Position numbers and translations under genes: made by a program
The notes under the pieces: generated by a model
Databases searched by the model: none
What the model saw: the letters and a program-made list of their open reading frames with translations, nothing else
Told to the model about the DNA's origin: nothing
Assembly: GCA_946902875.1 (NCBI GenBank)
Contig: OX336350.1
Span: forward strand, 18,652,048 to 18,716,047
Length of the DNA: 64,000 nucleotides
Source of the DNA: Nematopogon swammerdamellus
Lineage: Eukaryota > Arthropoda > Insecta > Lepidoptera > Adelidae
Direction: 5' to 3'
Shown here: positions 1 to 49,581 of the stretch, piece after piece
How the letters are laid out: the number at the start of each line of letters is the position of its first letter
Position numbering within the stretch: the first letter of the stretch is position 1

Positions 1-182
1 AGTGGTCAAACAGCCAAAGCCCCTCATCAGGGCTCCGAAGTTGAGTCGGAACTGTCTCGACATCGAGCAGTAGAGGACGAAGTTGATAGCACCGTTGAGG
101 AGCGCCAGAATGTCCATCAACTCGCCGAAGAGATCGTAACAGTCCTTGAAGAAACACCTCCCGAGAAGACCGCTTAGAAGAC
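1..182 (-). CDS. GPCR exon 7 (TM7 and start of cytoplasmic tail; partial)
   Basis: The exon starts at 182 after the acceptor TTTTCGCAG and completes a split glycine codon from exon 6. It then gives 60 codons open to the window edge. It reads LLSGLLGRCFFKDC, then DLFGELMDILALLNG, then AINFVLYCSMSRQFR. This is TM7 with NGAINFVLY in place of the usual NPxxY, followed by the basic helix-8 segment SRQFR. The rest of the tail and the stop codon lie outside the window. The close match to the DmsR/FMRFamide-receptor TM7 makes the assignment secure; the downstream exon end cannot be seen. Confidence 0.9.
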
Positions 183-4416: not shown

Positions 4417-4587
4417 CCAAAATCCCCTGCGGAAACTCAGTCAGTAGAAATAGCAGTAAAACAGCCACCAGCATCTTGGTTGTCCTGTCCGTTCTCTTGT
4501 CGGACTTGGTCTGTCTCTTGGCCTGCTGCTTCGCCAGTATCGCACCATTGCCGTTCACGACCGTTGGTTGGGGGCATGAGTTGTAAC
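4417..4587 (-). CDS. GPCR exon 6 (ICL3 end and TM6)
   Basis: This 171-bp exon is bounded by the acceptor TTTATCTAAG and a GTGAGT donor. It starts by completing a glycine codon and ends after the first base of another. It encodes a basic third-loop end rich in K/R/Q (AKQQAKRQTKSDK), then RTDRTTKMLVAVLLLF and LLTEFPQGIL, the TM6 signature of DmsR/FMRFamide receptors. The RTDRTTKML motif at the base of TM6 is the strongest single family identifier in the gene. Confidence 0.93.
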
Positions 4588-5714: not shown

Positions 5715-5928
5715 CTTTCAGCGCTTTCTTCCTGCTGTTGGCGCTATACAAAGCCCTGATGAGCCAGGCGCTGATGACCGTGAGGATTGCGCACGGAAGC
5801 AGCTTGATGATGACCGCGTGAACCCAGAAGTTGAGCTGGTAGAGCCGGCCGTCGTAGTCGGAGTCCACGTGGTAGAACACGAGCTGCGTCGTGTTCTCGT
5901 GGACGATCTGCTCGTGGACTGTGAACAC
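5715..5928 (-). CDS. GPCR exon 5 (ECL2, TM5, ICL3 start)
   Basis: This 214-bp exon lies between the acceptor TTTGTGCGCAG and a GTAACT donor. It has 71 codons plus one base. It begins VFTVHEQIVHENTTQL, an extracellular loop with an N-glycosylation site NTT, then FYHVDSDYDGRLYQL. TM5 is NFWVHAVIIKLLPCAIL and TVISAWLIRAL, followed by the basic loop NSRKKALK. Proline and the KLLPC motif fit TM5 of peptide receptors. No cysteine is present in the loop before TM5. Confidence 0.92.
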
Positions 5929-16823: not shown

Positions 16824-17010
16824 AAGAACTCTGGTAAATTACAGCGCAACACCGACCACCACGTTTAGCAAAGTAATTAGGAGAAGATAATTCTCAAGCA
16901 GTAAGTAAGGCACAAAGAACCACATACTGGGTGACTCGGCGGAAGAACCATGACAAGGTGAGAGGTGGCTATAGGCTAGCCTGTCGGCCCATCTCTCTTC
17001 TTCATGTATC
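16824..17010 (-). repeat. Family A, copy 5 (partial)
   Basis: AAGAACTCTGGTAAATTACAG and ACACCGACCACCACG through GACTCGGCGGAAG to CCTGTCGGCC. It is truncated at the LINE junction. Confidence 0.65.
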
Positions 17011-17029: not shown

Positions 17030-18310
17030 ACTAATAATAAATCTGTAAGGGGTGGTCATGGAGTAAGTTACTTTGTTTTATGAGATACTAGCTTTTGCCC
17101 GCGGCTTCGCTCGCGTGAAATTCGTATTTCAAAGGAAGAAAGTAAGTAACTAAGGGCGAGCTGGGTTCAGGTAAACGATAAACCTTCTCAACTAAAGTAA
17201 GTAACTAACGGCGAAGCTTCAGGCTGAGCTGCATTCTGGAAGACAATAAACCTTCTCGAAGAAAGTAAGTAACTAAGGGCGAGGCCGAAGGCCGAGCTGC
17301 GTTCAGGAAGATGATAAACCTACTCAAAGAAAGTAAGTAATTGAGGGCGAGGCCGAAGGCCGAGCTGCGTACAGGATGACTATAAACCTTCTTGAAGAAA
17401 GTAAGTAACTGAGGGCGAGGCCGAAGGCCGAGCTGCGTTCAGGAAGACGATAACCTTTTCGAAGAAAGTAAGTAACTAAGGGCGAGGCCGAAGGCCGCGC
17501 TGCGTTCAGGAAAACCTTCTCGAAGAAATTAAGTCATTGAGGGCGAGGCCGAAGGCCGAGCTGCGTTCAGGAAGAATATAAACTTTTTAATGAAAGTAAG
17601 TAACGGAGGGCGAGGCCGAAGGCCGAGCTGCGTTCAGGAAGACCATAAAACTTCTCGAAGAAAGTAAGTAACTAAGGGCGAGGCCGAAGGCCGAGCTGCG
17701 TTCAGGAAGACTATAAACCGTCTTGAAGAAAGTAAGTAACTATCGCCCATAGTTACTTACTGTCATCGAGAAGGTTTAGCGTCTTCCAGGATACAGCTCG
17801 GCCTTCGGCCACGCCCTTGGTTACTTACTTTCTTCGAGAAGGATTATAGTCTTCCTGAACGCAGCTCGACCTTAGGCCTCACCCTCAGTTACTTACTTTC
17901 TTCGAGAAGGTTTATGGTCTTCCTGAACGCAGCTCGGCCTTCGGCCTCGCCCTCTCTTACTTACTTTCATTAAAAAGGTTTATATTCTTTCTGAACGCAG
18001 CTCGGCCTTCGGCCTCGCCTTTAGTATGTTACTTACTTTCTTTGAGAATGTTTATTGTTCATCTAAATCCAGTTCACCCTCCGGCCCCGGCCTAATTTAC
18101 TTACTTTCTTCTTTTGAAATACGAATTTCACGCGAGCGAATCCGCGGGAAAAAGCTATCGATATTTAATTAGGAAACTTCAGTTAAAATAAATCAAATAC
18201 TTTAGATACCTAACAAATTATAATACTCCACTTATTAGCGTAACCGGAACTGAATTTTATTTAGCCTATCCTGTGTCTCGTATAGCTAAATGTGCGTGTA
18301 CTAATTTTAA
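17030..18310. repeat. Inverted ~62-bp minisatellite inside a rearranged family G copy
   Basis: From ~17145 to 17740 about nine direct units carry GGGCGAGGCCGAAGGCC and GAAGAAAGTAAGTAACT. From ~17750 to 18110 about six units run in reverse complement. The whole is bracketed by facing copies of the family G head: TTTTGCCCGCGGCTTCGC at ~17092 and CGCGAGCGAATCCGCGGG at ~18133. Family G itself contains GAAGAAAGTAAGTAA, so the array probably grew from that site. Remaining family G body follows at 18225-18310. Confidence 0.75.
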
Positions 18311-18428
18311 TCGAATTTAAATGATTGGCTTAAATTGTATGGAGGACTTTTTTTAGAACTATTTAAGAGAAACAACCAAATTTGATTTAAACGCAAATAT
18401 GATAATAAACTATCGTTTATCTTATATT

Positions 18429-19150
18429 CTCCCTCTCCCTCTCCCTCTCCCTCTCCCTCTCCCTCTCCCTCTCCCTCTCCCTCTCCCTCTCCCTCTCCCT
18501 CTCCCTCTCCCTCTCCCTCTCCCTCTCCCTCTCCCTCTCCTCTCCCTCTCCCTCTCCCTCTCCCTCTCCCTCTCCCTCTCCCTCTCCCTCTCCCTCTCCC
18601 TCTCCCTCTCCCTCTCCCTCTCCCTCTCCCTCTCCCTCTCCCTCTCCCTCTCCCTCTCCCTCTCCCTCTCCCTCTCCCTCTCCCTCTCCCTCTCCCTCTC
18701 CCTCTCCCTCTCCCTCTCCCTCTCCCTCTCCCTCTCCCTCTCCCTCTCCCTCTCCCTCTCCCTCTCCCTCTCCCTCTCCCTCTCCCTCTCCCTCTCCCTC
18801 TCCCTCTCCCTCTCCCTCTCCCTCTCCCTCTCCCTCTCCCTCTCCCTCTCCCTCTCCCTCTCCCTCTCCCTCTCCCTCTCCCTCTCCCTCTCCCTCTCCC
18901 TCTCCCTCTCTTTCTCCCTCCCTCTCCCTCTCCCTCTCCCTCTCCCTCTCCCTCTCCCTCTCCCTCTCCCTCTCCCTCTCCCTATCTTTCTCCCTCTCCC
19001 TCTCCCTCTCCCTCTCCCTCTCCCACTCCCTCTCCCTCTCCCTCTCCCTCTCCTTCTCCCTCCTCCTCTCCCTCCCCTCCCCCTCCCCTCCATCCCCCCT
19101 CCCCCTCCCCTCTCCCTCCCCTTCCCCCTCCCCTCTCCCTCCCCCTTTAC
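18429..19150 (+). repeat. (CCCTCT)n hexanucleotide microsatellite
   Basis: About 720 bp of near-pure CCCTCT. It decays towards its right end (TTTCTCC, ATCTTTC, CCTCCTCC, CCCCTCC interruptions from ~18900). Long Leu/Pro/Ser or Arg/Glu/Gly open frames here are artefacts of the repeat. Confidence 0.97.
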
Positions 19151-20223: not shown

Positions 20224-20326
20224 CTTGTAAGCAGGTATGCAGAGTAGTGGAGGCAGAGCGAAACTGATTAGTATAGCCAAAGTGCATCGCCTTTCAGTGC
20301 AGAGCGACGCGCTGTGTGCTGGGTAC
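20224..20326 (-). CDS. GPCR exon 4 (ICL2 and TM4)
   Basis: This 103-bp exon has the acceptor TTTGTTGACAG and the donor GTTTGT. It begins with one base completing a lysine codon. It then encodes YPAHSASLCTERRCTLAIL and ISFALPPLLCIPAYK. This is ICL2 (basic TERRC) followed by a hydrophobic TM4 with the double proline typical of TM4. It ends in phase 0 and joins VFTVHEQ of exon 5. It is the weakest exon by length, but both phases fit only this reading. Confidence 0.87.
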
Positions 20327-21823: not shown

Positions 21824-21960
21824 TTAATTGCAAGATATCTCCAGATGGCGAGAGAGAGCGTGAGGAATATAGATGACGTGTGCAGGATTTGTGTGTAGTG
21901 CATGTGGAACAGCAGGTATGCCGCCCATGAGTACGGGAAATCCATCGCACCGGGCAGGCT
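21824..21960 (-). CDS. GPCR exon 3 (ECL1 and TM3)
   Basis: This 137-bp exon has the acceptor CTGTTGACAG and the donor GTGAGT. It encodes SLPGAMDFPYSWAAYLLF, then HMHYTQILHTSSIFL and TLSLAIWRYLAI, ending after two bases of a lysine codon. WRYLAI takes the place of the DRY motif, as in DmsR-type receptors. No cysteine is present at the start of TM3 where most class A receptors have the disulfide partner. Confidence 0.93.
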
Positions 21961-22363: not shown

Positions 22364-22928
22364 TGGTGACGCGGCGGTAGGTCGCTGGAATTTTGCCCTT
22401 TTTAGGGTTCCGTATTTTTCTAAATATCGAACAAATTTTACCTATATAGGCTAGCGTTGCAAATTACAGTCGCGGTGAACACCACACCAGGGAAGGAAAG
22501 GAACTTGTGCAGGACTCACCCCCTGATGGATATCCTCGGCGCGGCGAAGCGGGTGGCCACCACGCGAAGAGGATCGTCTCCAGCAGCAGCCTTGCGAGAT
22601 GGACGACACTCGCGGCGATGAATTGTGTGCGAGCGGGTTAGTATGGACAACGTAGGTCCAGCGGCGAAGATTGAATAATAATTATATATTTTTTGATATT
22701 GCGGGTAAAAACTAGAGGTCCGATACCAATTTCGCGCGTGTGCAGACTCCAAGCGTATCGAGAGCTCACTGACTGCGTTCAGCTGCTCGGCCGCAGCGCG
22801 GCGTGACAGCGCGGAGCAGGCAGCGCGGTGCTCATCTCTTCAGGCGGTGAGGTAGGCATATTGGAGAGACAAGGAAGGGACTAGGTGAAATGTCACCACG
22901 ACTGATCTGCAACGCATCGGCCCAACCA
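22364..22928 (-). repeat. BEL 3' LTR
   Basis: Nearly identical to the 5' LTR. The visible difference is a short block near 22420, where TTTCTAAATATCGAAC replaces TTTCCTATATAGGC, making this copy 2 bp longer. The short open frame in both LTRs is not a gene. Confidence 0.95.
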
Positions 22929-22940
22929 TGCCCCCCAGCT
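22929..22940 (-). other. BEL polypurine tract
   Basis: On the coding strand AGCTGGGGGGCA directly precedes the 3' LTR, the expected position of the plus-strand primer. Confidence 0.65.
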
Positions 22941-23452
22941 TGACAGGACCAAGTCCTTTCAAAGTACATAGGACAAAGAAAAAAAAAATAAAATAAAATA
23001 ATTACAGAGAAAATACCTACCCAAGATTGTGCGAGCGAAGCAAAGCGCATTCAAAGTAATGCAATTATTTAAACCATTTTGTCGGTATATACCTACAGCG
23101 GATCGAAAAACAATTCGAAACAAGAAAAGAAATTAAAAATTTGTGGACTGTATAATTTGCGAAAGTAGGACTAGACAGTGTGAAAATATTCACCACTGTG
23201 CGCTTACTACGCGCCTACACTTTTCGGACCCAGCACGGCCGTTCACGATCTCACGAACGCCGTGACTTCCGGTGAGCAAATACAATATCAGGTATTTGCA
23301 GCGGTCATGATATTAGTTGATAAAAATATGATTGCGGTGAAATAATAATAAAGGGGAGAAGTCTATAGCTAAGCAAATTAGTATTACTCAAACTACAAAG
23401 ACAAAAAAAACAAAAAAAACAAACAAATAAATTTAATGTTTAAATGTGAAAG

Positions 23453-26400
23453 TTATTGATTTGGCAACGGACAAATCTTTACTACAGGACGCCTATACGT
23501 CCCGGTCTTAGTCCGGACATCGACCACTCTCACCACGCCGTCACTTCCGGGGAAAGTGTCCTCTACCACACCGAGCGGCCAGTTCAATGGAGCAGCGTCT
23601 CCCGATTTTAGTACGACTACGGTGCCCTTTTGAATAGTGTCTGTGGAAGAATTCCATTTTTGGCGTGTTTGTAAAGTGTTAAGATATTCCAATTTCCATC
23701 TTTTCCAAAAGGATTGTACGATTTGATCGACATTGCGCTTCCTGTGGAGGAGATTAGTGCATTCCCGCGAAACATCTTCAGAAGGAAGCGATTTAAGTGG
23801 AGTTAAGGTGAGAAAATGCGCCGGCGTGAGAGCGAGAGGTTCCGAAGGATCGGAACTCAGCATCGAAAGCGGTCGCGAATTAAGTATTGCCTCGATTTGT
23901 ACGAGTACGGTTAACATTTCTTCAAATGTGAGGAGTTGATTGCCAACTACTTTAAAGAGATGCAATTTAACACTGCGAACGTTACTCTCCCACATTCCAC
24001 CGAAGTGAGGAGCGGAAGGAGGATTGAACTTCCATTCAATATTATTATCGCGAAGTTCATTAGCAAACTTATCCTGATACTCCTCCGACGAAATCAACTC
24101 ATAAACCGCGTCGAGGTAAGACTTTGCTCCGACGAAATTGGTTCCGTTATCGGAGTACATGCAGCTGACCGGTCCGCGTCGCGAAATAAATCGTTTTAGC
24201 GCATTAAGAAACGACTCCGCGCTCAAATCAGAAGCCAACTCGATATGCACAGCCTTCGTCACCAAACATACAAATAGACAGATATATGCCTTGACACTAC
24301 GAGTGCCTCTGCGCCTGATTGGCACAATGTTTAGTGGTCCTGCAAAGTCTACTCCGGCAAAGCAAAAGCTTTTCGCTTCATTTACCCTACATGCCGGCAA
24401 GTCAGCCATTAGCGGAAATTGTGATTTCGGGTTTGTTTTGAAGCAGACATTGCATTGTTGGACACGTTTGCGAACAATATTGCGGGCGGATAATATCCAA
24501 TACGTCTGCCTCAGAAGCGACATTAACAATTGCGGTCCGGTGTGCAAGTATTTGCGGTGATAGTAATCCACGATAAGATCGACCACGTGATCACGCCGCG
24601 GTAGTAGGATGGGGTGGCGACTATCGTAAGGCAAATTAGCGTTACTCAATCTACCCCCAACTCGTAACACTCCGTCGTCGTCGAGGAAGGCATTTAATTT
24701 TCTAAATGCGGGACATAAAGTTTTCCCTGAGCGGGCATTGTTCAATTCGACAGGAAAGTGAACCTTTTGAACAGCCTTTAATATAGCGAGCTCGGCATAT
24801 TGTAAGTGAGATATTTCAAAGGTACCGGGCAATTTTCTTATAAATCTAAAAATGAAAATCACGATTCTACGCAGCTTCGGCCAAGAGGAGACGCGCGAAG
24901 CGAGCGTACACAGCAGCGGCGGTTCAGGTAAGTCCGTAGTAGCCGACATTACATTTATTTTCATTTCTGGTGGTTGCTCGACAGCACTCGGATCGAATAT
25001 GTTGACCGGCCATTGTTCAGCAGGTAGGTGGGCGAAAGCCGGCCCGCGGAACCACAGCGGGTGCTCCATTAATTGCGCAGGAGTTAGTCCTCGCGACAGG
25101 CAATCAGCTGGATTTTCTTTTCCACATACATGATGGAAATTACTAGCGGCGATATTTTCCTGAATTTTCGATACACGGTTCGCTATAAAAGTCTGCCAAC
25201 GCGAAGGAGAAGAATGAATCCAGGCCAGGGCCACGGTACTGTCGGTGAACGCGCAAATATTATCGATAGTACAGCGGGAAGCGTAGGTATCAATTACCAG
25301 ACGCATTAATTTTGCGAGGACTACATTTCCACATAGTTCCAAACGAGCGAGCGAAACATTACGGAGCGGTGCTACCTTTGATTTCGCACACACTAAACTT
25401 AATTGGTAGCGTTTTTTGCACGGAAACAATACGTGAAGGTAAACCACGCCACCGTATGCTCTTTCACTAGCATCAGCGAATCCTAAGATGGAGACGGTAC
25501 AGTCAGCAACGACACCCACGAGTCGTGGCAATCGTATATTCTGTAAATATGGGAGCTCTGACTCGAATTGGTTCCAGAGCGAGATGACACCTTGAGAAGG
25601 AGACTCATCCCAATCAATTTTATTTTCCCACAGTGATTTAATTATTAATTTTGCCATTAATATTACAGGTGCTACAAATCCCATTATATCCCAAAGACGA
25701 GCAATTGTGGACAATATGTTGCGTTTCGTGCACTCGCGATGTTCTGAGCAGACGGTGAATGAGAAGAAATCTACACGAGGCAGCCAATGTAATCCGAGAA
25801 TTTTGTAATGATCGTCCGAGTCGAACTCAACTGCCTCCGAGACGCGACGAGCGGCAGGTATGCCAGCCATCACTTGCGGGGAGTTACTTGAGAACTTTAC
25901 TAACTCAAACCCGCCAGCCTGAAATAAGTGAATCAGCTGATTTGATAACTCGGCAGCTGCATCGATAGAACAGCAACTAGTAGCCAAGTCATCCATGTAG
26001 ATATCAGTTGCCGCCACCTGCGCGGCTAGCGGGGCGCGCTCGCACTCGTCCGCAGCCAGTTGTCGCACGGTGCGCATAGCTAGGTACGGACTGCAGCGCA
26101 AGCCGAACGGCACACGCGTTAGCTCGTATAATTTAAGCGGTTCGTTATTGTTAAAGCGGTACAAAACTCTCTGAAAACATCTGTATTTTTTATCAACAAG
26201 TATTTGCATATACATTTGTCGAATATCAGCGCTGAGTGCAATAGGAAATAAGCGAAAATTTAATATTATTTTAAACAAATCATTTTGTAGATTTTTACCG
26301 GTGTGTAAGAACTCATTGAGCGAATGTCCTGAAGTGGTTTTCATACTGGCGTCCATCACGACGCGAACTTTAGTAGTCGATTTATCGTGACGAACAACAG

Positions 26401-28942
26401 CGTGGTGCGGAATGATATATTGCGGCGGCGCAGGTAAACTTGTCTGTGGAATAGCCACGACTGGTTCTAAGTAGCCTCTTTGTAGGTATTCTCTAAAAAC
26501 CTTATCGTATTCACCCTTTATCTCAGCGTCAGACAACAGTTTACGTTCTAATGCGTAAAATCTACGCTCAGCTATCATCCTTGAGTCACCCAGAATCGGC
26601 TCGTCCTTGAAAGGCAGTGCCACACTGTAGCGGCCGTTCGCGTCACGCATTGTCGTGTTTGAGTAAATGAGCTCGCACTCCTGTTCTTCGAACGTGAGCG
26701 ACGGCGCGTCTGGAACATCTTCTAACTCGAAGAATCTACTCATACTTGTTTCAAGGGAATCATTTACGTTACAATAAACGCGTGTAATATTGCACGTGGG
26801 ACCGAGGGCGGTTGCGGGCGCTTCTCCTAATATTAAGTAACCTAGTGAGGTTTCTATGGCGACCGGTTCACCCGAAGCCCGCGCGACCGTCCGACTACGT
26901 AAAATACGAGCGAATAGATCGGCCCCGATAATAAGGTCTATTTCGGCAGGTTCAAAATACTTGTTATCACTTAGCGGCAGATCGCGTAAATATTCAAGTT
27001 GCGAAATATCGACTTTAGTTGAAGGTAATTCATTAGTAATTCGATTTACCACAAACGGCTGTATGGTGAACCTTATGGTATCATCGAAGCGGGAGCGTAT
27101 GGTCAGGCACGTGACTCCTTCAATAGGGTTAATGACGTCACCTACTCCAGCAACTACTTTATTTTGCGGCGGGTGTAGTTTTAAATGGAGCTTCTTGCAA
27201 CAGGCGGTTGTGATTAAATCCTTCTGTGACGCGCTATCCACCAGCACACGCACCGTGTGAATGGTACCGGCGACATCGATCACGTGACATAATGCCGTGC
27301 CCAATAAAACCGTAGTGTTGCGGGAAACATTATTATTTGTTCCGACGGAACACAACACTGAAGGCGATCCTTCAGAAGGGAAAGCGGGGCGGACGGGCGC
27401 GGAGGTAGTGCTGGCGGAGACGTGCGGAGCGGGTGCGGGACGGACGACGGCGTGGTCGGCCGCGTGAGCCGCCGCCGGAGGCGGAGGAGCGAGCTCATCG
27501 ACAGAGGCGAGCGGTGCGGGCGCGGGCGCAAGGCTGAAGGCGGGGGAGCGCGCGCCGGAGGCGGAGGAGGCGGCGGCGGCGCGAGCGTAATTAACAGCGA
27601 CTTTATTCGACTGCGGAATCGGTGACTCGTTACTCGAATCAAAATGAAGCGACGTATGATGTGAACGAGAGCATACTCGACATCTGACTTTTGATTTACA
27701 GTTACGAATTGTGTGTTTGCTACTTAAACAATTAACACATAAATTATTGGATTTCACAAAGTTATATCGTTCGCGGGCAGACATTGCACTGAACTTGGAG
27801 CAATGATATAACTGTGAATGATCAATTCCTCCACAGGAAACACATCTATCGTCCGGTAGACTTACAAATGTTTTGTAAGTACTATTATTTCGGGACTGCG
27901 GCGGAGGTGGTGGAGGTTTGACCGCGGGGCGGTAATTATTGTTACCACTGGTAGCGTTCGGTTGATTCGCGCGGTGCGGAGGCGGAGAAGGCGGCTGATT
28001 TGCGGATGTACCCGCATACGCTCGTTGTAAGATGCGGGATTGCTCGCGAACGAAGTCAATGAACTTTAACGATGTAGGCATTGCGTTCTCGCCTCGGAGT
28101 GACATTTCAAATAATTTTACAGTTTCAACTCCGAGTTTTTTACTACCAATGTGAATGAACATGAACTCTTCCAAGCTATCCAGTTTTAATTGCTTCAAGG
28201 CGGACACAATGGATGAAAACTTATCCACGAATTTTTCCAAACTGCTGGCTGTGGCCTCACCGACACTCGGTAAATTCAGTAGCTGATCTAGATAATTAGC
28301 GGCCAGTACGCGTTTATCGTTATATTTTTTCACCAATGCGTCCCACAACACTGGATAATTGTCGGCAGTAGGCATGAAGCCTTGACACATATTCTGAGCT
28401 TGGCCTGTCAATCTACCAACCAAATATTGGATTTTTTCACCATCCGTCAGATCCGCGTTTTCGTGAATGACCGTTCTGAACGTCTCGAAAAATATAGGCC
28501 AATTATGTATGTCTCCATCGAAAGAACACAACTCTAACCGTGGTAATTTTGGCGCCTGTCGGAATGACAGTTTGCCATCCACCTTATTAGTTTGCGCGGT
28601 TTGTCGCGACGAAATGATTTGGTCGTATTTGAATTGTATTTCGGCGTACAAGTCCTCGAAAGCGTTCATGGACTTGTAGCAGGGTTCAGCAGCGTCCGGG
28701 TTTGACGCAAGCAGTTCGTTGTATTCGTCCAATGTCGACATAAATTCTTGGCGCATAGTGTTAGTGGTGGCTGCGTTTGCGACAAATATATCCACATTTT
28801 GTGGGTTTAGGTTTATTATTTTGTCAAATATGACCTGTAAGCGCTCGAAATAGCACTTCTTTTTATTTTCAATGCGCTTTAACTTACGCTCGTACAACCT
28901 TTTTTCACGTTCCATTTCGAGTCTATCTGCACCGGTAGCCAT
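23453..28942 (-). CDS. BEL/Pao gag-pol polyprotein
   Basis: 1829 residues, uninterrupted. Gag (1-450) has a coiled charged N-terminus, a DUF1759-like region (about 130-300), proline-rich linkers and zinc knuckles: C402-X2-C-X4-H-X4-C415 and a second cysteine/histidine cluster at 421-433. The aspartic protease has LVDSAS around D569. RT spans about 800-1050, with SADIRQMYMQI (D905) and YMDD at 982-985. RNase H has FADAS (D1157), LELCG (E1202), TDST (D1234) and D1280. The integrase has an H1462/H1467-C1497/C1500 zinc site and catalytic D1532, D1598, E1652, with a DUF5641-like C-terminus. All catalytic residues are present and length is normal for BEL, so it may be functional. The ATG at 28942 follows a 131-bp leader. 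Confidence 0.96.
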   Translation of the reverse strand: MATGADRLEMEREKRLYERKLKRIENKKKCYFERLQVIFDKIINLNPQNVDIFVANAATTNTMRQEFMSTLDEYNELLASNPDAAEPCYKSMNAFEDLYAEIQFKYDQIISSRQTAQTNKVDGKLSFRQAPKLPRLELCSFDGDIHNWPIFFETFRTVIHENADLTDGEKIQYLVGRLTGQAQNMCQGFMPTADNYPVLWDALVKKYNDKRVLAANYLDQLLNLPSVGEATASSLEKFVDKFSSIVSALKQLKLDSLEEFMFIHIGSKKLGVETVKLFEMSLRGENAMPTSLKFIDFVREQSRILQRAYAGTSANQPPSPPPHRANQPNATSGNNNYRPAVKPPPPPPQSRNNSTYKTFVSLPDDRCVSCGGIDHSQLYHCSKFSAMSARERYNFVKSNNLCVNCLSSKHTIRNCKSKVRCRVCSRSHHTSLHFDSSNESPIPQSNKVAVNYARAAAASSASGARSPAFSLAPAPAPLASVDELAPPPPAAAHAADHAVVRPAPAPHVSASTTSAPVRPAFPSEGSPSVLCSVGTNNNVSRNTTVLLGTALCHVIDVAGTIHTVRVLVDSASQKDLITTACCKKLHLKLHPPQNKVVAGVGDVINPIEGVTCLTIRSRFDDTIRFTIQPFVVNRITNELPSTKVDISQLEYLRDLPLSDNKYFEPAEIDLIIGADLFARILRSRTVARASGEPVAIETSLGYLILGEAPATALGPTCNITRVYCNVNDSLETSMSRFFELEDVPDAPSLTFEEQECELIYSNTTMRDANGRYSVALPFKDEPILGDSRMIAERRFYALERKLLSDAEIKGEYDKVFREYLQRGYLEPVVAIPQTSLPAPPQYIIPHHAVVRHDKSTTKVRVVMDASMKTTSGHSLNEFLHTGKNLQNDLFKIILNFRLFPIALSADIRQMYMQILVDKKYRCFQRVLYRFNNNEPLKLYELTRVPFGLRCSPYLAMRTVRQLAADECERAPLAAQVAATDIYMDDLATSCCSIDAAAELSNQLIHLFQAGGFELVKFSSNSPQVMAGIPAARRVSEAVEFDSDDHYKILGLHWLPRVDFFSFTVCSEHRECTKRNILSTIARLWDIMGFVAPVILMAKLIIKSLWENKIDWDESPSQGVISLWNQFESELPYLQNIRLPRLVGVVADCTVSILGFADASERAYGGVVYLHVLFPCKKRYQLSLVCAKSKVAPLRNVSLARLELCGNVVLAKLMRLVIDTYASRCTIDNICAFTDSTVALAWIHSSPSRWQTFIANRVSKIQENIAASNFHHVCGKENPADCLSRGLTPAQLMEHPLWFRGPAFAHLPAEQWPVNIFDPSAVEQPPEMKINVMSATTDLPEPPLLCTLASRVSSWPKLRRIVIFIFRFIRKLPGTFEISHLQYAELAILKAVQKVHFPVELNNARSGKTLCPAFRKLNAFLDDDGVLRVGGRLSNANLPYDSRHPILLPRRDHVVDLIVDYYHRKYLHTGPQLLMSLLRQTYWILSARNIVRKRVQQCNVCFKTNPKSQFPLMADLPACRVNEAKSFCFAGVDFAGPLNIVPIRRRGTRSVKAYICLFVCLVTKAVHIELASDLSAESFLNALKRFISRRGPVSCMYSDNGTNFVGAKSYLDAVYELISSEEYQDKFANELRDNNIEWKFNPPSAPHFGGMWESNVRSVKLHLFKVVGNQLLTFEEMLTVLVQIEAILNSRPLSMLSSDPSEPLALTPAHFLTLTPLKSLPSEDVSRECTNLLHRKRNVDQIVQSFWKRWKLEYLNTLQTRQKWNSSTDTIQKGTVVVLKSGDAAPLNWPLGVVEDTFPGSDGVVRVVDVRTKTGTYRRPVVKICPLPNQ

Positions 28943-29050
28943 CTTAATAGGTACGCGGGATTTACTATGTACCTACTTAATTTAATTTATAATTTTGAAA
29001 TGGATAATAAACACGAAATATAATATAACTGCAATGCTAACCAATAGGGA

Positions 29051-29068
29051 TCGCGGGTCGAAGGGCCA
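29051..29068 (-). other. Candidate BEL primer-binding site
   Basis: Five bases inside the 5' LTR the coding strand reads TGGCCCTTCGACCCGCGA. TGG is what a tRNA CCA end would pair with. I cannot match the rest to a particular tRNA. Confidence 0.4.
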
Positions 29069-29073
29069 ACTTA

Positions 29074-29636
29074 TGGTGACGCGGCGGTAGGTCGCTGGAA
29101 TTTTGCCCTTTTTAGGGTTCCGTATTTTTCCTATATAGGCAAATTTTACCTATATAGGCTAGCGTTGCAAATTACAGTCGCGGTGAACACCACACCAGGG
29201 AAGGAAAGGAACTTGTGCAGGACTCACCCCCTGATGGATATCCTCGGCGCGGCGAAGCGGGTGGCCACCACGCGAAGAGGATCGTCTCCAGCAGCAGCCT
29301 TGCGAGATGGACGACACTCGCGGCGATGAATTGTGTGCGAGCGGGTTAGTATGGACAACGTAGGTCCAGCGGCGAAGATTGAATAATAATTATATATTTT
29401 TTGATATTGCGGGTAAAAACTAGAGGTCCGATACCAATTTCGCGCGTGTGCAGACTCCAAGCGTATCGAGAGCTCACTGACTGCGTTCAGCTGCTCGGCC
29501 GCAGCGCGGCGTGACAGCGCGGAGCAGGCAGCGCGGTGCTCATCTCTTCAGGCGGTGAGGTAGGCATATTGGAGAGACAAGGAAGGGACTAGGTGAAATG
29601 TCACCACGACTGATCTGCAACGCATCGGCCCAACCA
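29074..29636 (-). repeat. BEL 5' LTR
   Basis: Copy of 22364-22928 with identical termini. It contains the duplicated motif CTATATAGGC near its 3' end on the plus strand reading. Confidence 0.95.
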
Positions 29637-31449: not shown

Positions 31450-32034
31450 GTCCAGACAACGTCCATTAAAAGAGCCGGCAACGTCCGGTAGCGTCCTAAA
31501 CTCCTCGGCGTCGTTGTGAGTCACGACTCTCCTAACTTCAATCTGCATCCATGCTGCAAAGACGCTATATTACCTCTTCAGGCTCAGTGGTCGGTGACAT
31601 TATCTGACGACTGAATATGAAGTGCTAAGTGCGCGCCACTTGAAGAGTCACTCGACGGAACCGGCGGCGGCGGTACCGTGAAATATCGTGCATATTTCAC
31701 GGTAGCATAGTTACTACACCGCAATACCTAGGGAACCTGAACACGTTTTGGGTCTGGATCTTACGTATATCCTTCAGTAGAGAATTCGAGATATTCCAGA
31801 CCACAGATGTACGCACAGAGACCTGTGGCCTGATGTAATGAACCTTCAAGACGTATTATACGTAACTGTATTAAGAATTAATTTTCGTAGCAGAGTCTAT
31901 CTAGTCTTCTAGTCTAGTAATATATAAGTGAAACGAACAGAGTACTTTTAGAAGGCGTTGGCTGTACTAAAGAGTTTTATAGGTTGGTTTTGATAGTATA
32001 AGTTGATCGACTACATTTATGGCACAGTGTTTTA
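31450..32034. other. Intron 2 sequence, nothing recognised
   Basis: No motif or repeat identified. A small palindrome CCGTGAAATATCG / CATATTTCACGG is at ~31675-31704. Confidence 0.4.
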
Positions 32035-32036
32035 TA

Positions 32037-32494
32037 CAGGTTGTCCCCGGACAGGTGTAGTTCCTTTAAGGAGGCTATTCTACGCCTTGTAACAAAAGCA
32101 CTGGTGAAAGAATTTTTTTAATATGTGCTTTCATTAAAATTTTAGGATTTCCTAACAAACTAAATGCATACTACAATGTGTGGGCGCCTTTAGATCGCGC
32201 GACTGAAACGCAAGGCGGAATGGCGCGGGTCGGGGCGCGAGCGGTACGCGGTCGGAGCGGGCTATCTGTTTGCGTTCACTCGCGTCGCGTCCCGTCCGTA
32301 TTCCCGCTGCCCGCTGCCCCGCGCCCCGCGCGCGCCCGATTAGAGCATTACAACATTAAACTACATTAATAACTTTAAAAATTTATATCTCCGCAACAGA
32401 CGTACCTAGAACCCTACTTCTCTTAGTAATTATGTTTGTTACAAAGCGTAGAATAGCTTCCTTGAAGGAACTACACCAGTCCGGGGACATCCTG
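32037..32494. mobile_element. TA-flanked 458-bp MITE with GC-rich core
   Basis: Inverted ends of ~55 bp start CAGGTTGTCCCCGGAC on the left and CAGGATGTCCCCGGAC on the right arm. TA flanks lie at 32035-32036 and 32495-32496. The outside sequences rejoin as CAGTGTTTTATA / TTGTACAGAG, which matches CAGTGTTGTATATTGTACAG in each unit of the neighbouring array. It therefore inserted into intron 2 of the GPCR just after exon 2's donor. The core 32180-32335 is very CpG-rich. Confidence 0.85.
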
Positions 32495-32496
32495 TA

Positions 32497-34138
32497 TTGT
32501 ACAGAGCGGCGTGTACGTACGAAGTACTTGTAGGCGGCGAAGGGCACGCTGGACGAAGACGTCGGCGACCGCGAGCCACTTGAGCAGTCGGTTGATGGGA
32601 GCGGTGGCCGTGCGTATTGAATAGTGGCACAGTGTTGTATATTGTACAGAGCGGCGTGTACGTACGAAGTACTTGTAGGCGGCGAAGGGCACGTACTCCA
32701 GCATGACGAAGACGTCGGCGACCGCGAGCCACTTGAGCAGTCGGTTGATGGGAGCGGTGGCCGTGCGTATTGAATAGTGGCACAGTGTTGTATATCGTAC
32801 AGAGCGGCGTGTACGTACGAAGTACTTGTAGGCGGCGAAGGGCACGTACTCCAGCATGACGAAGACGTCGGCGACCGCGAGCCACTTGAGCAGTCGGTTG
32901 ATGGGAGCGGTGGCCGTGCGTATTGAATAGTGGCACAGTGTTGTATATTGTACAGAGCGGCGTGTACGTACGAAGTACTTGTAGGCGGCGAAGGGCACGT
33001 ACTCCAGCATGACGAAGACGTCGGCGACCGCGAGCCACTTGAGCAGTCGGTTGATGGGAGCGGTGGCCGTGCGTATTGAATAGTGGCACAGTGTTGTATA
33101 TTGTACAGAGCGGCGTGTACGTACGAAGTACTTGTAGGCGGCGAAGGGCACGTACTCCAGCATGACGAAGACGTCGGCGACCGCGAGCCGCTTGAGCAGT
33201 CGGTTGATGGGAGCGGTGGCCGTGCGTATTGAATAGTGGCACAGTGTTGTATATTGTACAGAGCGGCGTGTACGTACGAAGTACTTGTAGGCGGCGAAGG
33301 GCACGTACTCCAGCATGACGAAGACGTCGGCGACCGCGAGCCGCTTGAGCAGTCGGTTGATGGGAGCGGTGGCCGTGCGTATTGAATAGTGGCACAGTGT
33401 TGTATATTGTACAGAGCGGCGTGTACGTACGAAGTACTTGTAGGCGGCGAAGGGCACGTACTCCAGCATGACGAAGACGTCGGCGACCGCGAGCCACTTG
33501 AGCAGTCGGTTGATGGGAGCGGTGACCGTGCGTATTGAATAGTGGCACAGTGTTGTATATTGTACAGAGCGGCGTGTACGTACGAAGTACTTGTAGGCGG
33601 CGAAGGGCACGTACTCCAGCATGACGAAGACGTCGGCGACCGCGAGCCACTTGAGCAGTCGGTTGATGGGAGCGGTGGCCGTGCGTATTGAATAGTGGCA
33701 CAGTGTTGTATATTGTACAGAGCGGCGTGTACGTACGAAGTACTTGTAGGCGGCGAAGGGCACGTACTCCAGCATGACGAAGACGTCGGCGACCGCGAGC
33801 CACTTGAGCAGTCGGTTGATGGGAGCGGTGGCCGTGCGTATTGAATAGTGGCACAGTGTTGTATATTGTACAGAGCGGCGTGTACGTACGAAGTACTTGT
33901 AGGCGGCGAAGGGCACGTACTCCAGCATGACGAAGACGTCGGCGACCGCGAGCCACTTGAGCAGTCGGTTGATGGGAGCGGTGACCGTGCGTATTGAATA
34001 GTGGCACAGTGTTGTATATTGTACAGAGCGGCGTGTACGTACGAAGTACTTGTAGGCGGCGAAGGGCACGTACTCCAGCATGACGAAGACGTCGGCGACC
34101 GCGAGCCACTTGAGCAGTCGGTTGATGGGAGCGGTGGC
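32497..34138 (-). repeat. 153-bp tandem array of the 3' part of GPCR exon 2 with its splice donor
   Basis: GTACAGAG marks the units at 32499, 32644, 32797, 32950, 33103, 33256, 33409, 33562, 33715, 33868 and 34021. The spacing is exactly 153 except the first, which is 145 because of an 8-bp deletion. On the coding strand each unit holds 97 nt of exon (GGCCACCGC ... TACAAGTACTTC), the donor GTACGT, ~40 nt of intron and a ~16-nt filler. Only a handful of substitutions separate units. The period is a multiple of three and all three minus frames are free of stops across most of the array, so long ORFs here are a by-product. Confidence 0.97.
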
Positions 34139-34201
34139 CATTTCACGCCGCGTCAGCACGGCTACGTTCAGTGCGTTCGCCAGGCTCCCGAACACGCACA
34201 C
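34043..34201 (-). CDS. GPCR exon 2 (TM1 and TM2)
   Basis: This 159-bp exon has the acceptor TTTTTGTACCAG and the first available GTACGT donor. It encodes VCVFGSLANALNVAVL (TM1 with the conserved N), TRREMATAPINRLL (ICL1), then KWLAVADVFVMLEYV and PFAAYKYF (TM2 with D in LAVAD). Phase 0 at both ends joins exon 1 ...HGYVSLL and exon 3 SLPG.... Its last 97 nt are repeated ten more times downstream (see 32497). If a later donor is used the exon grows by 51 codons per unit without losing frame. Confidence 0.92.
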
Positions 34202-41034: not shown

Positions 41035-41395
<361 letters not shown>

Positions 41396-42273: not shown

Positions 42274-42562
42274 CAAAGAGATTTTATGTATAGAGTGAGC
42301 ACTACGAAGAAAGAATACAGAGAAATGACGGCCAATAACTGAGGTATGAGGTAAGGTAGCGGGGTGGCGGAACGCTGAGCCGCGCGGGGCGGGAAGCGAG
42401 CGGGAGAGGGGCTAGCTAGCGAGCGAAGCGACTAGCGGCTAGCGGCCCGGCCGGCCCGGCCGGTCAGTCAACACGTGCATTGGAATACGTAGGGTTGTCA
42501 CTTAGTCTACCAAAAATATATTTTTCGATTTATTATTTTACGAGTAGGTATTATGGTTAATT

Positions 42563-42626
42563 GTGCCCGTAGTCTAGTGGTAACGCTTCTCAATGCAGAA
42601 GTTGCGGGTTCAAAATCCCGGGCACT
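42563..42626 (+). repeat. tRNA-like unit in duplication copy 1
   Basis: GTGCCC/GGGCAC ends, an A box TAGTCTAGTGG and a B box carrying one extra A (GGTTCAAAATCC). It has a 6-base anticodon loop and a short T-stem, so it is not a functional tRNA by eye. Confidence 0.55.
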
Positions 42627-43101
42627 AACTAATGTACTTATTTATTTCCTTGATAAAGATTGATATACGTGCATTTCATAACGAATAGGTACGATCGCTC
42701 CGGTGAAGAAAAATAAAGTTAGGTAACTAGTGCACACTGGTCTATGAAAGGTATTTTTGTGTAAACTGCTTCTGATTTCCACTGGTCACCATGTACGAGT
42801 AATCGAATCGGATATAACAAATTGTGACAAGTTCGAGTGCAATATGACTGCCATAAGAATACTCAATAAACAATAAAACAACAACAATAAAAACAATACC
42901 TCCTATGTCAGTGAGCAGAGTCCGTGCCTAGCAGTGAGACGTTTTAAAGGATTATAGAAGAAAACAGATAGTGAATTTCATCGAAAAAAACGTTTTTATG
43001 TATTTAAACTTAAAATACAGAACTATAATAACTTGAAATACATACCTAAACTTATATGGGTTTTTAAATTACCGTGGTTATTTGACATTTTAAGAAGTAA
43101 C

Positions 43102-43236
43102 AACGGCTTTACTCACTATCGAAATACGAGCTGTGTGGCTCGACATTTCGGCCAGAGTGCTCATGATGATGGGCCATACGTTTGGCCCGAAACGTCGAGC
43201 CACACAGCTCATATTTCGACCGCGAGTAAAGCCGTT
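43102..43236. repeat. Family H foldback, copy 1
   Basis: ~52-bp arms with few mismatches; the core is GAGCTGTGTGGCTCGAC against GTCGAGCCACACAGCTC. Also at 47942-48076 (part of the duplication), at 60188-60324 with a different core, and as a half at 52133-52200. Confidence 0.8.
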
Positions 43237-43964
43237 TTGTATTCTTATAATACCTACACTTAATAACTAGAATAATATCTAAAAAACTAAACTTAATAAT
43301 AAAGAATTCATAACTGCGGTCTTGGCCTTGGACTAAGCTTAAAATCTCCAAACCAAACATACATAAAATAAAGAGTGCAGCATTTATAAATATATATATA
43401 TATATATATATATAACTAAAAAAAAACATTAGGTATACTTTGGACTACACACACAAACACAACTAAAATAACTCTTCCTCCGTACTTAAACAAAATAATT
43501 TTAATTTCACTTTACACAAATTTAAATTTTCACTTTCCCTTAAACAATGTATCATCTTGGACTATTTTTATCCATCTTTCTCGTATTGATCCCTTAGAAG
43601 GATGTGGAAACAATGTAAAAAAAATTTTTTCTTGAAAATTTCTCAATTACTTACTAATTAAAAAAAAATAAAAGAATAGCGACAACCCTAATTAGCGGTC
43701 AATTCACTCTCATATTTTAACGTGGTTTAATACATATTTATTTACTTTCATACATGATATCCCAGAACTCTATTTCTAATCATTCATATGTGGCAGCCCT
43801 AATGAGCGCGTTCAATTTATTTGTTTAATTAAATAATGCTTATGTTATTGCAATGCGAGGTCAATACATAAAATGTACAAAATTTTCAAATTGAAGTAGC
43901 CTTGTGACAGCCCTAATTGGCCAGTTGAACCAAATATTTCTAAGCACATGGAAAACAATATATT

Positions 43965-44468
43965 ATATATAAGGTCTTTCAAAATTAGTTAATAGTACGC
44001 TAAGGGGGGGTTCTGTATCGTAAATAAATCACTTTTGAGGAACAAAGATTTTTTTTTACAAAAAAAAAAAATTATAATAATGTAAAATGTAAAAAAAAAT
44101 TCTTTTCTTAATCGTTTCAGTTTCATGCCAGGAACAAAAAAGTCTTCAAACACATAGATCTCTTTCTTTCAGAAATTGTGAAAACCACAATTTTAGTTTT
44201 ATTAGTATGGAATAGAAAGAATTTGATTTTTTTTACCAACTTACACGTGTTACATCAAAATGGTAATGAAGACTTTTTTGTTACTGTTATGAAAATGAAT
44301 CGATTAGGCTATAAAAATCAACCACATATTTTTTTATTTAAATACATACAAAACATTTTACATAAAAAAAGCCTAAGGTCCAAAAAATTTTATATAGGTT
44401 TTACTCCCTATATGATGCAGAACCCCCCCTTAGCGTACTATTAACTAATTTTGAAAGACCTTATATAT
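43965..44468. mobile_element. AAGGTCTTTCAAAATTAG TIR element
   Basis: ~50-bp terminal inverted repeats starting ATATAAGGTCTTTC and ending in GGGGGGGTTCTG. The interior is AT-rich. A second copy is at 48778-49280 within the duplication, and a lone left part at 50360-50530. Confidence 0.75.
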
Positions 44469-44768
44469 TAAGATCACAATGAAGTGATAATTACCTATGA
44501 AATGAGATGCCATCAGTTTTCCCAATATTTTTGGTATGATTTTTGCAATATTGCAATTCGCAACACACAACCGGGCATAATGAATGACTGGCGCGATGCG
44601 AGCCGCAGACGGACGGCAGCGAGCGCGCGGACGGCGCGTCCGCCGCGTTCGGTCGCTCGCGAGCTACTAGTCTCAAGAGGGTCCCTCCGCGTAATGGTTA
44701 CTCCACCGCGGTGGAGCGAAGGCTGTTGCCCGGGTAAGAGGTCTAGTAGAATACATGATACGTCATTG

Positions 44769-47120: not shown

Positions 47121-49581
47121 CAAAGAGATTTTATGTATAGAGTGAGCACTACGAAGAAAGAATACAGAGAAATGACGGCCAATAACTGAGGTATGAGGTA
47201 AGGTAGCGGGGTGGCGGAACGCTGAGCCGCGCGGGGCGGGAAGCGAGCGGGAGAGGGGCTAGCTAGCGAGCGACTAGCGGCTAGCGGCCCGGCTGGCCCG
47301 GCCGGTCAGTCAACACGTGCATGGAATACGTAGGGTTGTCACTTAGTCTACCAAAAATATATTTTTCGATTTATTATTTTACGAGTAGGTATTATGGTTA
47401 ATTGTGCCCGTAGTCTAGTGGTAACGCTTCTCAATGCAGAAGTTGCGGGTTCAAATCCCGGGCACTAACTAATGTACTTATTTATTTCCTTGATAAAGAT
47501 TGATATACGTGCATTTCATAACGAATAGGTACGATCGCTCCGGTGAAGAAAAATAAAGTTAGGTAACTAGTGCACACTGGTCTATGAAAGGTATTTTTGT
47601 GTAAACTGCTTCTGATTTCCACTGGTCACCATGTACGAGTAATCGAACCGGATATAACAAATTGTGACAAGTTCGAGTGCAATATGACTGCCATAAGAAT
47701 ACTCAATAAACAATAAAACAACAACAATAAAAACAATACCTCCTATGTCAGTGAGCAGAGTCCGTGCCTAGCAGTGGGACGTTTTAAAGGATTATAGAAG
47801 AAAACAGATAGTGAATTTCATCGAAAAAAACGTTTTTATGTATTTAAACTTAAAATACAGAACTATAATAACTTGAAATAAATACCTAAACTTATATGGG
47901 TTTTTAAATTACCGTGGTTATTTGACATTTTAAGAAGTAACAACGGCATTACTCACTATCGAAATACGAGCTGTGTGGCTCGACATTTCGGCCAGAGTGC
48001 TCATGATGATGGGCCATACGTTTGGCCCGAAACGTCGAGCCACACAGCTCATATTTCGACCGCGAGTAAAGCCGTTTTGTATTCTTATAGTACCTACACT
48101 TAATAACTAGAATAATATCTAAAAAACTAAACTTAATAATAAAGAATTCATAACTGCGGTCTTGGCCTTGGACTAAACTTAAAATCTTCAAACCAAACAT
48201 ACATAAAATAAAGAGTGCAGCATTTATAAAAAAAATATATATATATAACTAAAAAAACCATTAGGTATACTTTGGACTACACACACAAACACAACTAAAA
48301 TAACTCTTCCTCCGTACTTAAACAAAATAATTTAAATTTCACTTTACACAAATTTAAATTTTCACTTTCCCTTAAACAATGTATCATCTTGGACTATTTT
48401 TATCCATCTTTCTCGTATTGATCCCTTAGAAGGATGTGGAAACCTTGTAAAAAAATTGTTTTCTTGAAAATGTCTCAATTACTTACTAATTAAAAAAAAA
48501 AAAAAGAATAGCGACAATTCACTCTCATATTTTAACGTGGTTTAATACATATTTATTTACTTTCATACATGATATCCCAGAACTCTATTTCTAATCATTC
48601 ATATGTGGCAGCCCTAATGAGCGCGTTCAATTTATTTGTTTAATTAAATAATTATTAAATAGTTATTGCAATGCGAGGTCAATACATAAAATGTACAAAA
48701 TTTTCAAATTGAAGTAGCGTTGTGACAGCCCTAATTGGCCAGTTGAACCAAATATTTCTAAGCACATGGAAAACAAGATATTATATATAAGGTCTTTCAA
48801 AATTAGTTAATAGTACGCTAAGGGGGGGTTCTGTATCGTAAATAAATCGCTTTTGAGGAACAAAGATTTTTTTTTACAAAAAAAAAATTTATAATAATGT
48901 AAAATGTAAAAAAAAATTCTTTTCTTAATCGTTTCAGTTTCATGCCAGGAACAAAAAAGTCTTCCAACACATAGATCTCTTTCTTTCAGAAATTGTGAAA
49001 ACCACAATTTTAGTTTTATTAGTATGGAATAGAAAGAATTTGATTTTTTTTACCAACTTACACGTGTTACATCAAAATAGTAATGAAGACTTTTTTGTTA
49101 CTGTTATGAAAATGAATCGATTAGGCTATAAAAATCAACGACATATTTTTTTATTTAAATACATACAAAACATTTTACATAAAAAAAGGCGAAGGTCCAA
49201 AAAATTTTATATAGGTTTTACTCCCTATATGATGCAGAACCCCCCCTTAGCGTACTATTAACTAATTTTGAAAGACCTTATATATTAAGATCACAATGAA
49301 GTGATACTTACCTATGAAATGAGATGCCATCAGTTTTCCCAATATTTTTGGTATGATTTTTGCAATATCGCAATTCGCAACACACAACCGGGCATAATGA
49401 CTGGCGCGATGCGAGCCGCAGACGGACGGCAGCGAGCGCGCGGACGGCGCGTCCGCCGCGTTCGGTCGCTCGCGAGCTACTAGTCACAAGAGGGTCCCTC
49501 CGCGTAATGGTTACTCCACCGCGGTGGAGCGAAGGCTGTTGCCCGGGTAAGAGGTCTAGTAGAATACATGATACGTCGTTG
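47121..49581. repeat. 2.5-kb duplicated segment, copy 2
   Basis: Direct-orientation copy of 42274-44768, about 34 bp shorter. Its tRNA-like unit at 47404-47466 keeps an intact B box GGTTCAAATCC. It carries the family H foldback (47942-48076) and the TIR element (48778-49280). Confidence 0.95.

Follow-up and report, generated by a model that had tools for sequence, protein, structure and literature searches.

Eleven tandem copies of a candidate splice donor in a putative dmsr-1-like receptor gene of the moth Nematopogon swammerdamellus

Introduction

How would a spliceosome pick one 5′ splice site from eleven sites of the same sequence, placed 153 nt apart in an intact-looking gene? A tandem array of Nematopogon swammerdamellus raises this question and could serve as a natural experiment on it, in which position and surroundings must decide donor choice because the donor sequence is constant. 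If the copy number varies among individuals, the locus would also offer a dose series, and if distal donors are used, a membrane segment of a receptor would be repeated by splicing alone. The original prediction, made from the letters of the 64,000-nucleotide stretch of DNA analysed here (the window), proposed that the array multiplies the end of a GPCR exon together with its donor, and that one gene could therefore yield a ladder of isoforms.

Results and Discussion

The host gene can be identified, by homology and gene structure, as an intact lepidopteran dmsr-1-like (myosuppressin-receptor-like) GPCR. A search with the first part of the exon 2 frame as query gave 101 proteins, largely lepidopteran dmsr-1-like receptors, the rest including some stick-insect and mollusc or unnamed sequences, and tblastn of these homologues against the window delimited seven coding exons on the minus strand, from 53382 to the window edge (Table 1). 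GT-AG borders were found at 6/6 introns, and the frame joined through the first array donor (donor 1) runs for 416 codons without a stop, to the window edge. Pfam detected rhodopsin-family/Srw-type 7TM domains in the receptor, PF10324 scoring 107.7 bits and PF00001 scoring 81.3 bits, each over cut-off. Homologues, domains and open frame bear out the original prediction of a real GPCR gene, and the splice sites confirm its exon 3 acceptor at 21960, with exon 2 at 34201-34043. The full-length search yielded 691 proteins with E-values no higher than 1e-60; the top identity among the best 120 of these matches was 72%, and identity to most of the best homologues listed was 66-72%. In a tree of 53 proteins hand-picked from the 140 collected, plus the window's own and with the bagworm entry P0083 left out, the receptor was sister to a lepidopteran A20-like clade that has Plutella (P0004) and Eumeta (P0010) among its members; this position had a support of 97/86, but the branch was long. 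A quick analysis of all 101 proteins gave this position a support of only 80. N. swammerdamellus may be an early-branching moth. The entry P0083, a bagworm (Eumeta) protein named "Mariner Mos1 transposase", contains a dmsr-1-like receptor fragment in which the exon 2/exon 3 border is longer by 130 residues; this entry may be a fused gene model.

Table 1. Position, strand and basis of the array, its surroundings and the exons of the putative receptor gene.
Feature	Position in window	Strand	Basis
153-bp tandem array, eleven units	32495..34139	-	TRF and unit table
Donor 1, TTC/GTACGT, giving the homologous receptor junction	34037..34042	-	script, U1 pairing, alignment
Donors 2-11	32515..33889	-	script and joined-frame check
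MITE-like element, CAGG...CCTG, TA on each side, in the unit 11 linker	32037..32494	.	inverted repeat
Intron 2 resuming past the element: TAAAACACTGTGCCA, vs TACAACACTGTGCCA in the array linker	32020..32034	-	sequence comparison
Coding exon 1, with start codon	53101..53382	-	tblastn, splice sites, joined frame
Coding exon 2, 53 codons, end of TM1 region to TM2	34043..34201	-	tblastn, splice sites, junction alignment
Coding exon 3, acceptor partner of the array donors	21824..21960	-	tblastn, splice sites, joined frame
Coding exon 4	20224..20326	-	tblastn, splice sites, joined frame
Coding exon 5	5715..5928	-	tblastn, splice sites, joined frame
Coding exon 6	4417..4587	-	tblastn, splice sites, joined frame
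Coding exon 7, cut by the window edge	1..182	-	tblastn, splice sites, joined frame

In regard to the array itself, TRF returned a period of 153 with 10.8 copies and 98% matches, and units 1-10 were found by script to be exactly 153 bp long. On the minus strand, a unit consists of 97 nt of the exon 2 end, running from GGCCACC to TTC, followed by 41 nt that resemble the beginning of intron 2 and by a filler of about 15 nt, and the exon part of unit 1 is the last 97 nt of exon 2. The donor motif TACTTC/GTACGTACACG (the slash marks the exon border) occurs in 11/11 units, with the TTC/GTACGT junction present in all eleven copies; the first intron base lies at 34042, 33889, 33736, 33583, 33430 and 33277 for donors 1-6 and at 33124, 32971, 32818, 32665 and 32520 for donors 7-11. 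Unit 11 has 4 nt in place of 12 nt (net -8), and its linker is cut by an inserted element. The eleven units with an identical GTACGT donor, the period of 51 codons, the 8-bp deletion in the most distal unit and the near-identity of the copies had all been read correctly from the letters. Because the copies are near-identical, the array is probably young or homogenised.

Differences among the copies are few. Relative to the consensus of units 1-10, a change of C to T is common to units 2 and 5, T to C is common to units 6 and 7, A to G is found in unit 9 alone, and the sole difference of unit 1 is the exon border base (ATG against ACG). The size of an array of near-identical units is easily misjudged, and an assembler could have multiplied one or a few true copies. 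Such an origin is nevertheless hardly probable, as the variants differ by unit, unit 11 carries a deletion of its own, and the last linker holds an inserted element beyond which the intron carries on; these features argue against assembler stutter. The array is real in the assembled sequence, where its apparent copy number is eleven.

Since unit 1 joins the true exon and unit 11, across the inserted element, the true intron, the array represents a tandem amplification of the border between exon 2 and intron 2. The intron past the element carries on with the linker's next bases, which shows that the intron-like part of the unit derives from intron 2; the best linker match outside the array is the intron just past the element (17 bp, 94%, E 0.026), a match weak by itself, yet located exactly at the element's edge. 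For the filler, no convincing source was found within the window. The inserted element shows the terminal inverted repeats and short target duplication of a MITE of the TA-target type, its arms (32034-32096 and 32435-32497, TAs included) being 63 nt long and 92% complementary, and no second copy of it was found within the 64-kb window. In the scenario we propose, the boundary of the intact dmsr-1-like gene would have been duplicated in tandem, with the filler at the join; expansion to eleven copies would have followed, presumably through replication slippage or unequal exchange.

Arrays associated with splicing are known from other genes. Human IFI6 (G1P3, 6-16) has a minisatellite with a repeat unit of 12 bp and with alternative repeat donors that are in-frame. 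In 1995, Turri, Cuin and Porter reportedly described this minisatellite as providing multiple splice donors. According to an excerpt of PMC4526556, two downstream minisatellite units of this gene serve as donors and give rise to three mRNAs. As far as that excerpt goes, IFI6 and the moth locus share a tandem array at an exon 3′ end with a donor in each unit. Likewise, as in a splice-donor minisatellite of the IFI6 type, every moth unit has its GT donor (11/11), and donors 1-10, not donor 11, lie in one phase. The two differ in that the IFI6 unit is very short, whereas the moth unit of 153 bp combines a TM2-coding segment with intron in a GPCR gene, and in that downstream donors are used in IFI6 mRNA, as the excerpt has it, whereas in the moth such use is hypothetical. 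VNTR6-1 of TERT intron 6, a tandem array of a 38-bp unit linked to splicing in an excerpt of PMC11830802, is similarly an array inside a gene and tied to splicing, but it lies within the intron, and the excerpt does not mention a copied exon-intron boundary. Lepidopteran dmsr-1-like/neuropeptide receptor A20-like GPCRs are alike in being intact seven-exon receptors, but the repeated block of the moth gene is absent from all 101 homologues that were aligned. The original prediction knew of no described receptor with this arrangement. Judging by titles and the openings of abstracts, no array of this kind in an insect receptor appeared among the matches listed in open-licence PMC, where no paper paired "tandem duplication" with "duplicated splice donor" either; the claim holds to that extent for insect receptors, but the arrangement as such has a non-receptor precedent in IFI6, as the excerpt describes it.

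Concerning the choice among the donors, donor 1 by itself already gives a normal receptor, its junction being homologous in the alignment (YKYF/SLPG vs e.g. YRYL/VLPG). We favour, with a probability of roughly 60%, a long-unit splice-donor minisatellite whose extra copies are mostly decoy donors. The donor nearest the acceptor (34042) would delimit the normal 159-nt exon and act as the productive site, and the ten further copies in intron 2 would be equal, weak decoys. Donors 2-10, if used occasionally, would lengthen the protein by 51 aa per step and most likely yield misfolded receptors. Apart from the homologous junction, the open 416-codon frame and the six GT-AG introns obtained with donor 1, this reading draws on the joins of unit 1 to true exon and of unit 11 to true intron, on the frameshift in unit 11, and on the near-chance open frame and the properties of the repeated blocks discussed below. 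Against it stands the likeness of the eleven donors, as the donor sequence itself does not favour the first.

The predicted strength of the donor also bears on this choice. Pairing of TTC/GTACGT with the U1 5′ end was predicted at -2.9 kcal/mol, the weakest of the gene's six donors, the other five having -6.0, -6.5, -7.6, -10.4 and -11.1 kcal/mol. A scan from exon 2 to 32400 covered 133 GTs, several of which outscore the array donor; such GTs lie, once per unit, in the exon parts of units 1-10 (-3.5), at 34193 (-3.9) and past the array at 32405 (-6.3), and because of them the measure does not predict the site used. Because the donor is weak by this prediction, competition among equal copies is plausible, as is leakage, which weighs against the decoy reading. 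A notable share of transcripts could then use distal donors or retain the array and give non-functional products, so that the copy number would lower or tune receptor output. The identity of the donors would fit such a role, as would the stops that end both the donor 11 product and full retention of the array, the latter at 32473, inside the element. On the other hand, under exon definition the acceptor-proximal donor giving a normal-sized exon is expected to win, and we consider substantial leakage unlikely, though well worth keeping in mind.

The weakness of the donor could have been compensated by the array. The last exon 2 residue is L in 83/102 rows, whereas F occurs in two, one of them the window's own; a codon for leucine with a final G would provide the pre-cut base that TTC is without. 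The donor could thus have become weak when this codon changed to TTC, with the repeats raising local U1 recruitment and being kept for that reason, a role to which its place as the weakest of the six would also correspond. Downstream copies would, however, compete as well as help, and we regard this possibility as most improbable.

Two further ideas on donor choice were rejected. A masking of the donors by RNA structure, suggested by the GTACGTAC palindrome, is not supported, as the folds were no stabler than shuffles (156/200 and 15/20 shuffles folded at least as well); in local accessibility, the eleven donors rank between the 17th and 38th percentiles, which is not extreme, with values of 0.005 to 0.030 vs 0.0003 to 0.0925 at the gene's other donors. 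Use of the copies as cassette or mutually exclusive exons is unlikely, since the 57-nt linker is without AG and each of the three AGs per unit is inside the exon part. The pyrimidine content at the unit AGs (0.60-0.70 over 20 nt) falls inside the 0.55-0.80 of the gene's own acceptors, and this measure does not exclude cassette use.

It was originally supposed that the distal donors could be used regularly, producing functional receptors with one to nine extra 51-aa blocks. The phase arithmetic behind this idea, which already excepted the most distal donor, was right: joined to exon 3, donors 1-10 are in frame and open to the window edge (416, 467 ... 875 aa), donors 2-10 adding a computed 51 to 459 aa, and donor 11 is out of phase and runs into a stop. 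Ten in-phase donors without a stop are what a ladder of isoforms requires, which counts against the decoy reading, and the alternative donors among the IFI6 repeat units (excerpt of PMC4526556) lend the ladder some analogy. The units are indeed open, as stated from the start, but the absence of stops is weak evidence for coding, because the unit is open in each of its three sense frames and because the open frame is near chance. In a given frame, 7,851/20,000 random 57-nt stretches of the gene's introns and 8,577/20,000 shuffled linkers were open, and with a further factor of one third for a period divisible by 3, we arrive at a chance of about 13-14% without coding function.

The blocks themselves speak for decoys rather than for a ladder. 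Among units 2-10, 3/3 substitutions at variable sites are nonsynonymous, a count that leaves out the unit 1 border base and the unit 11 deletion, and one of them turns W to R where W stands in 100/102 aligned rows. No coding constraint on the repeats was seen, with three variable sites giving little power, and the variants point weakly away from it. The repeated unit was found in 0/101 aligned homologues; two of these homologues are longer at the exon 2/3 border by more than 8 residues, which by eye are unlike the unit. With a best 19-residue hydropathy of 1.49, each block would bring one TM2-like helix, and TM3-7 should be inverted whenever the number of added helices is odd. Nothing was found in support of the ladder itself, which we consider very unlikely. 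A wider version, in which ten equal, weak, in-phase donors, perhaps of varying copy number, would act as a splicing counter giving graded TM2-block receptors or decoy-tuned output, is also very unlikely.

Pfam matches to GILT, YSIRK_signal, RepA1_leader, T2SSM and Nodulin in the array's conceptual protein were dismissed as chance scores summed over repeats, no single stretch passing alone in these five families; PF00001 is likewise without a single passing stretch there, and PF10324 has one.

Several other repeats were observed in the window. Intron 2 of the receptor gene holds a BEL/Pao-type LTR retrotransposon (22364-29636), with direct repeats at 22364-22928 and 29074-29636 (98.9%) and an uninterrupted 1,839-aa ORF with Peptidase_A17, RVT_1 and integrase domains. 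In intron 1, a direct repeat of about 2.5 kb (42274-44768 and 47121-49581) is 97.0% identical, with its copies about 4.8 kb apart. A non-LTR retrotransposon at 14289-16838 has an uninterrupted 849-aa ORF with a PF00078 reverse transcriptase and a sub-threshold endonuclease match. At 17152-18111, two adjoining 68-bp arrays with reverse-complementary units meet head to head at 17742/17743. A TCTCCC hexanucleotide array of about 121 copies (18428-19146) contains long low-complexity ORFs in several frames, and an uninterrupted GA dinucleotide array (41202-41360) comprises 79.5 copies with 100% matches.
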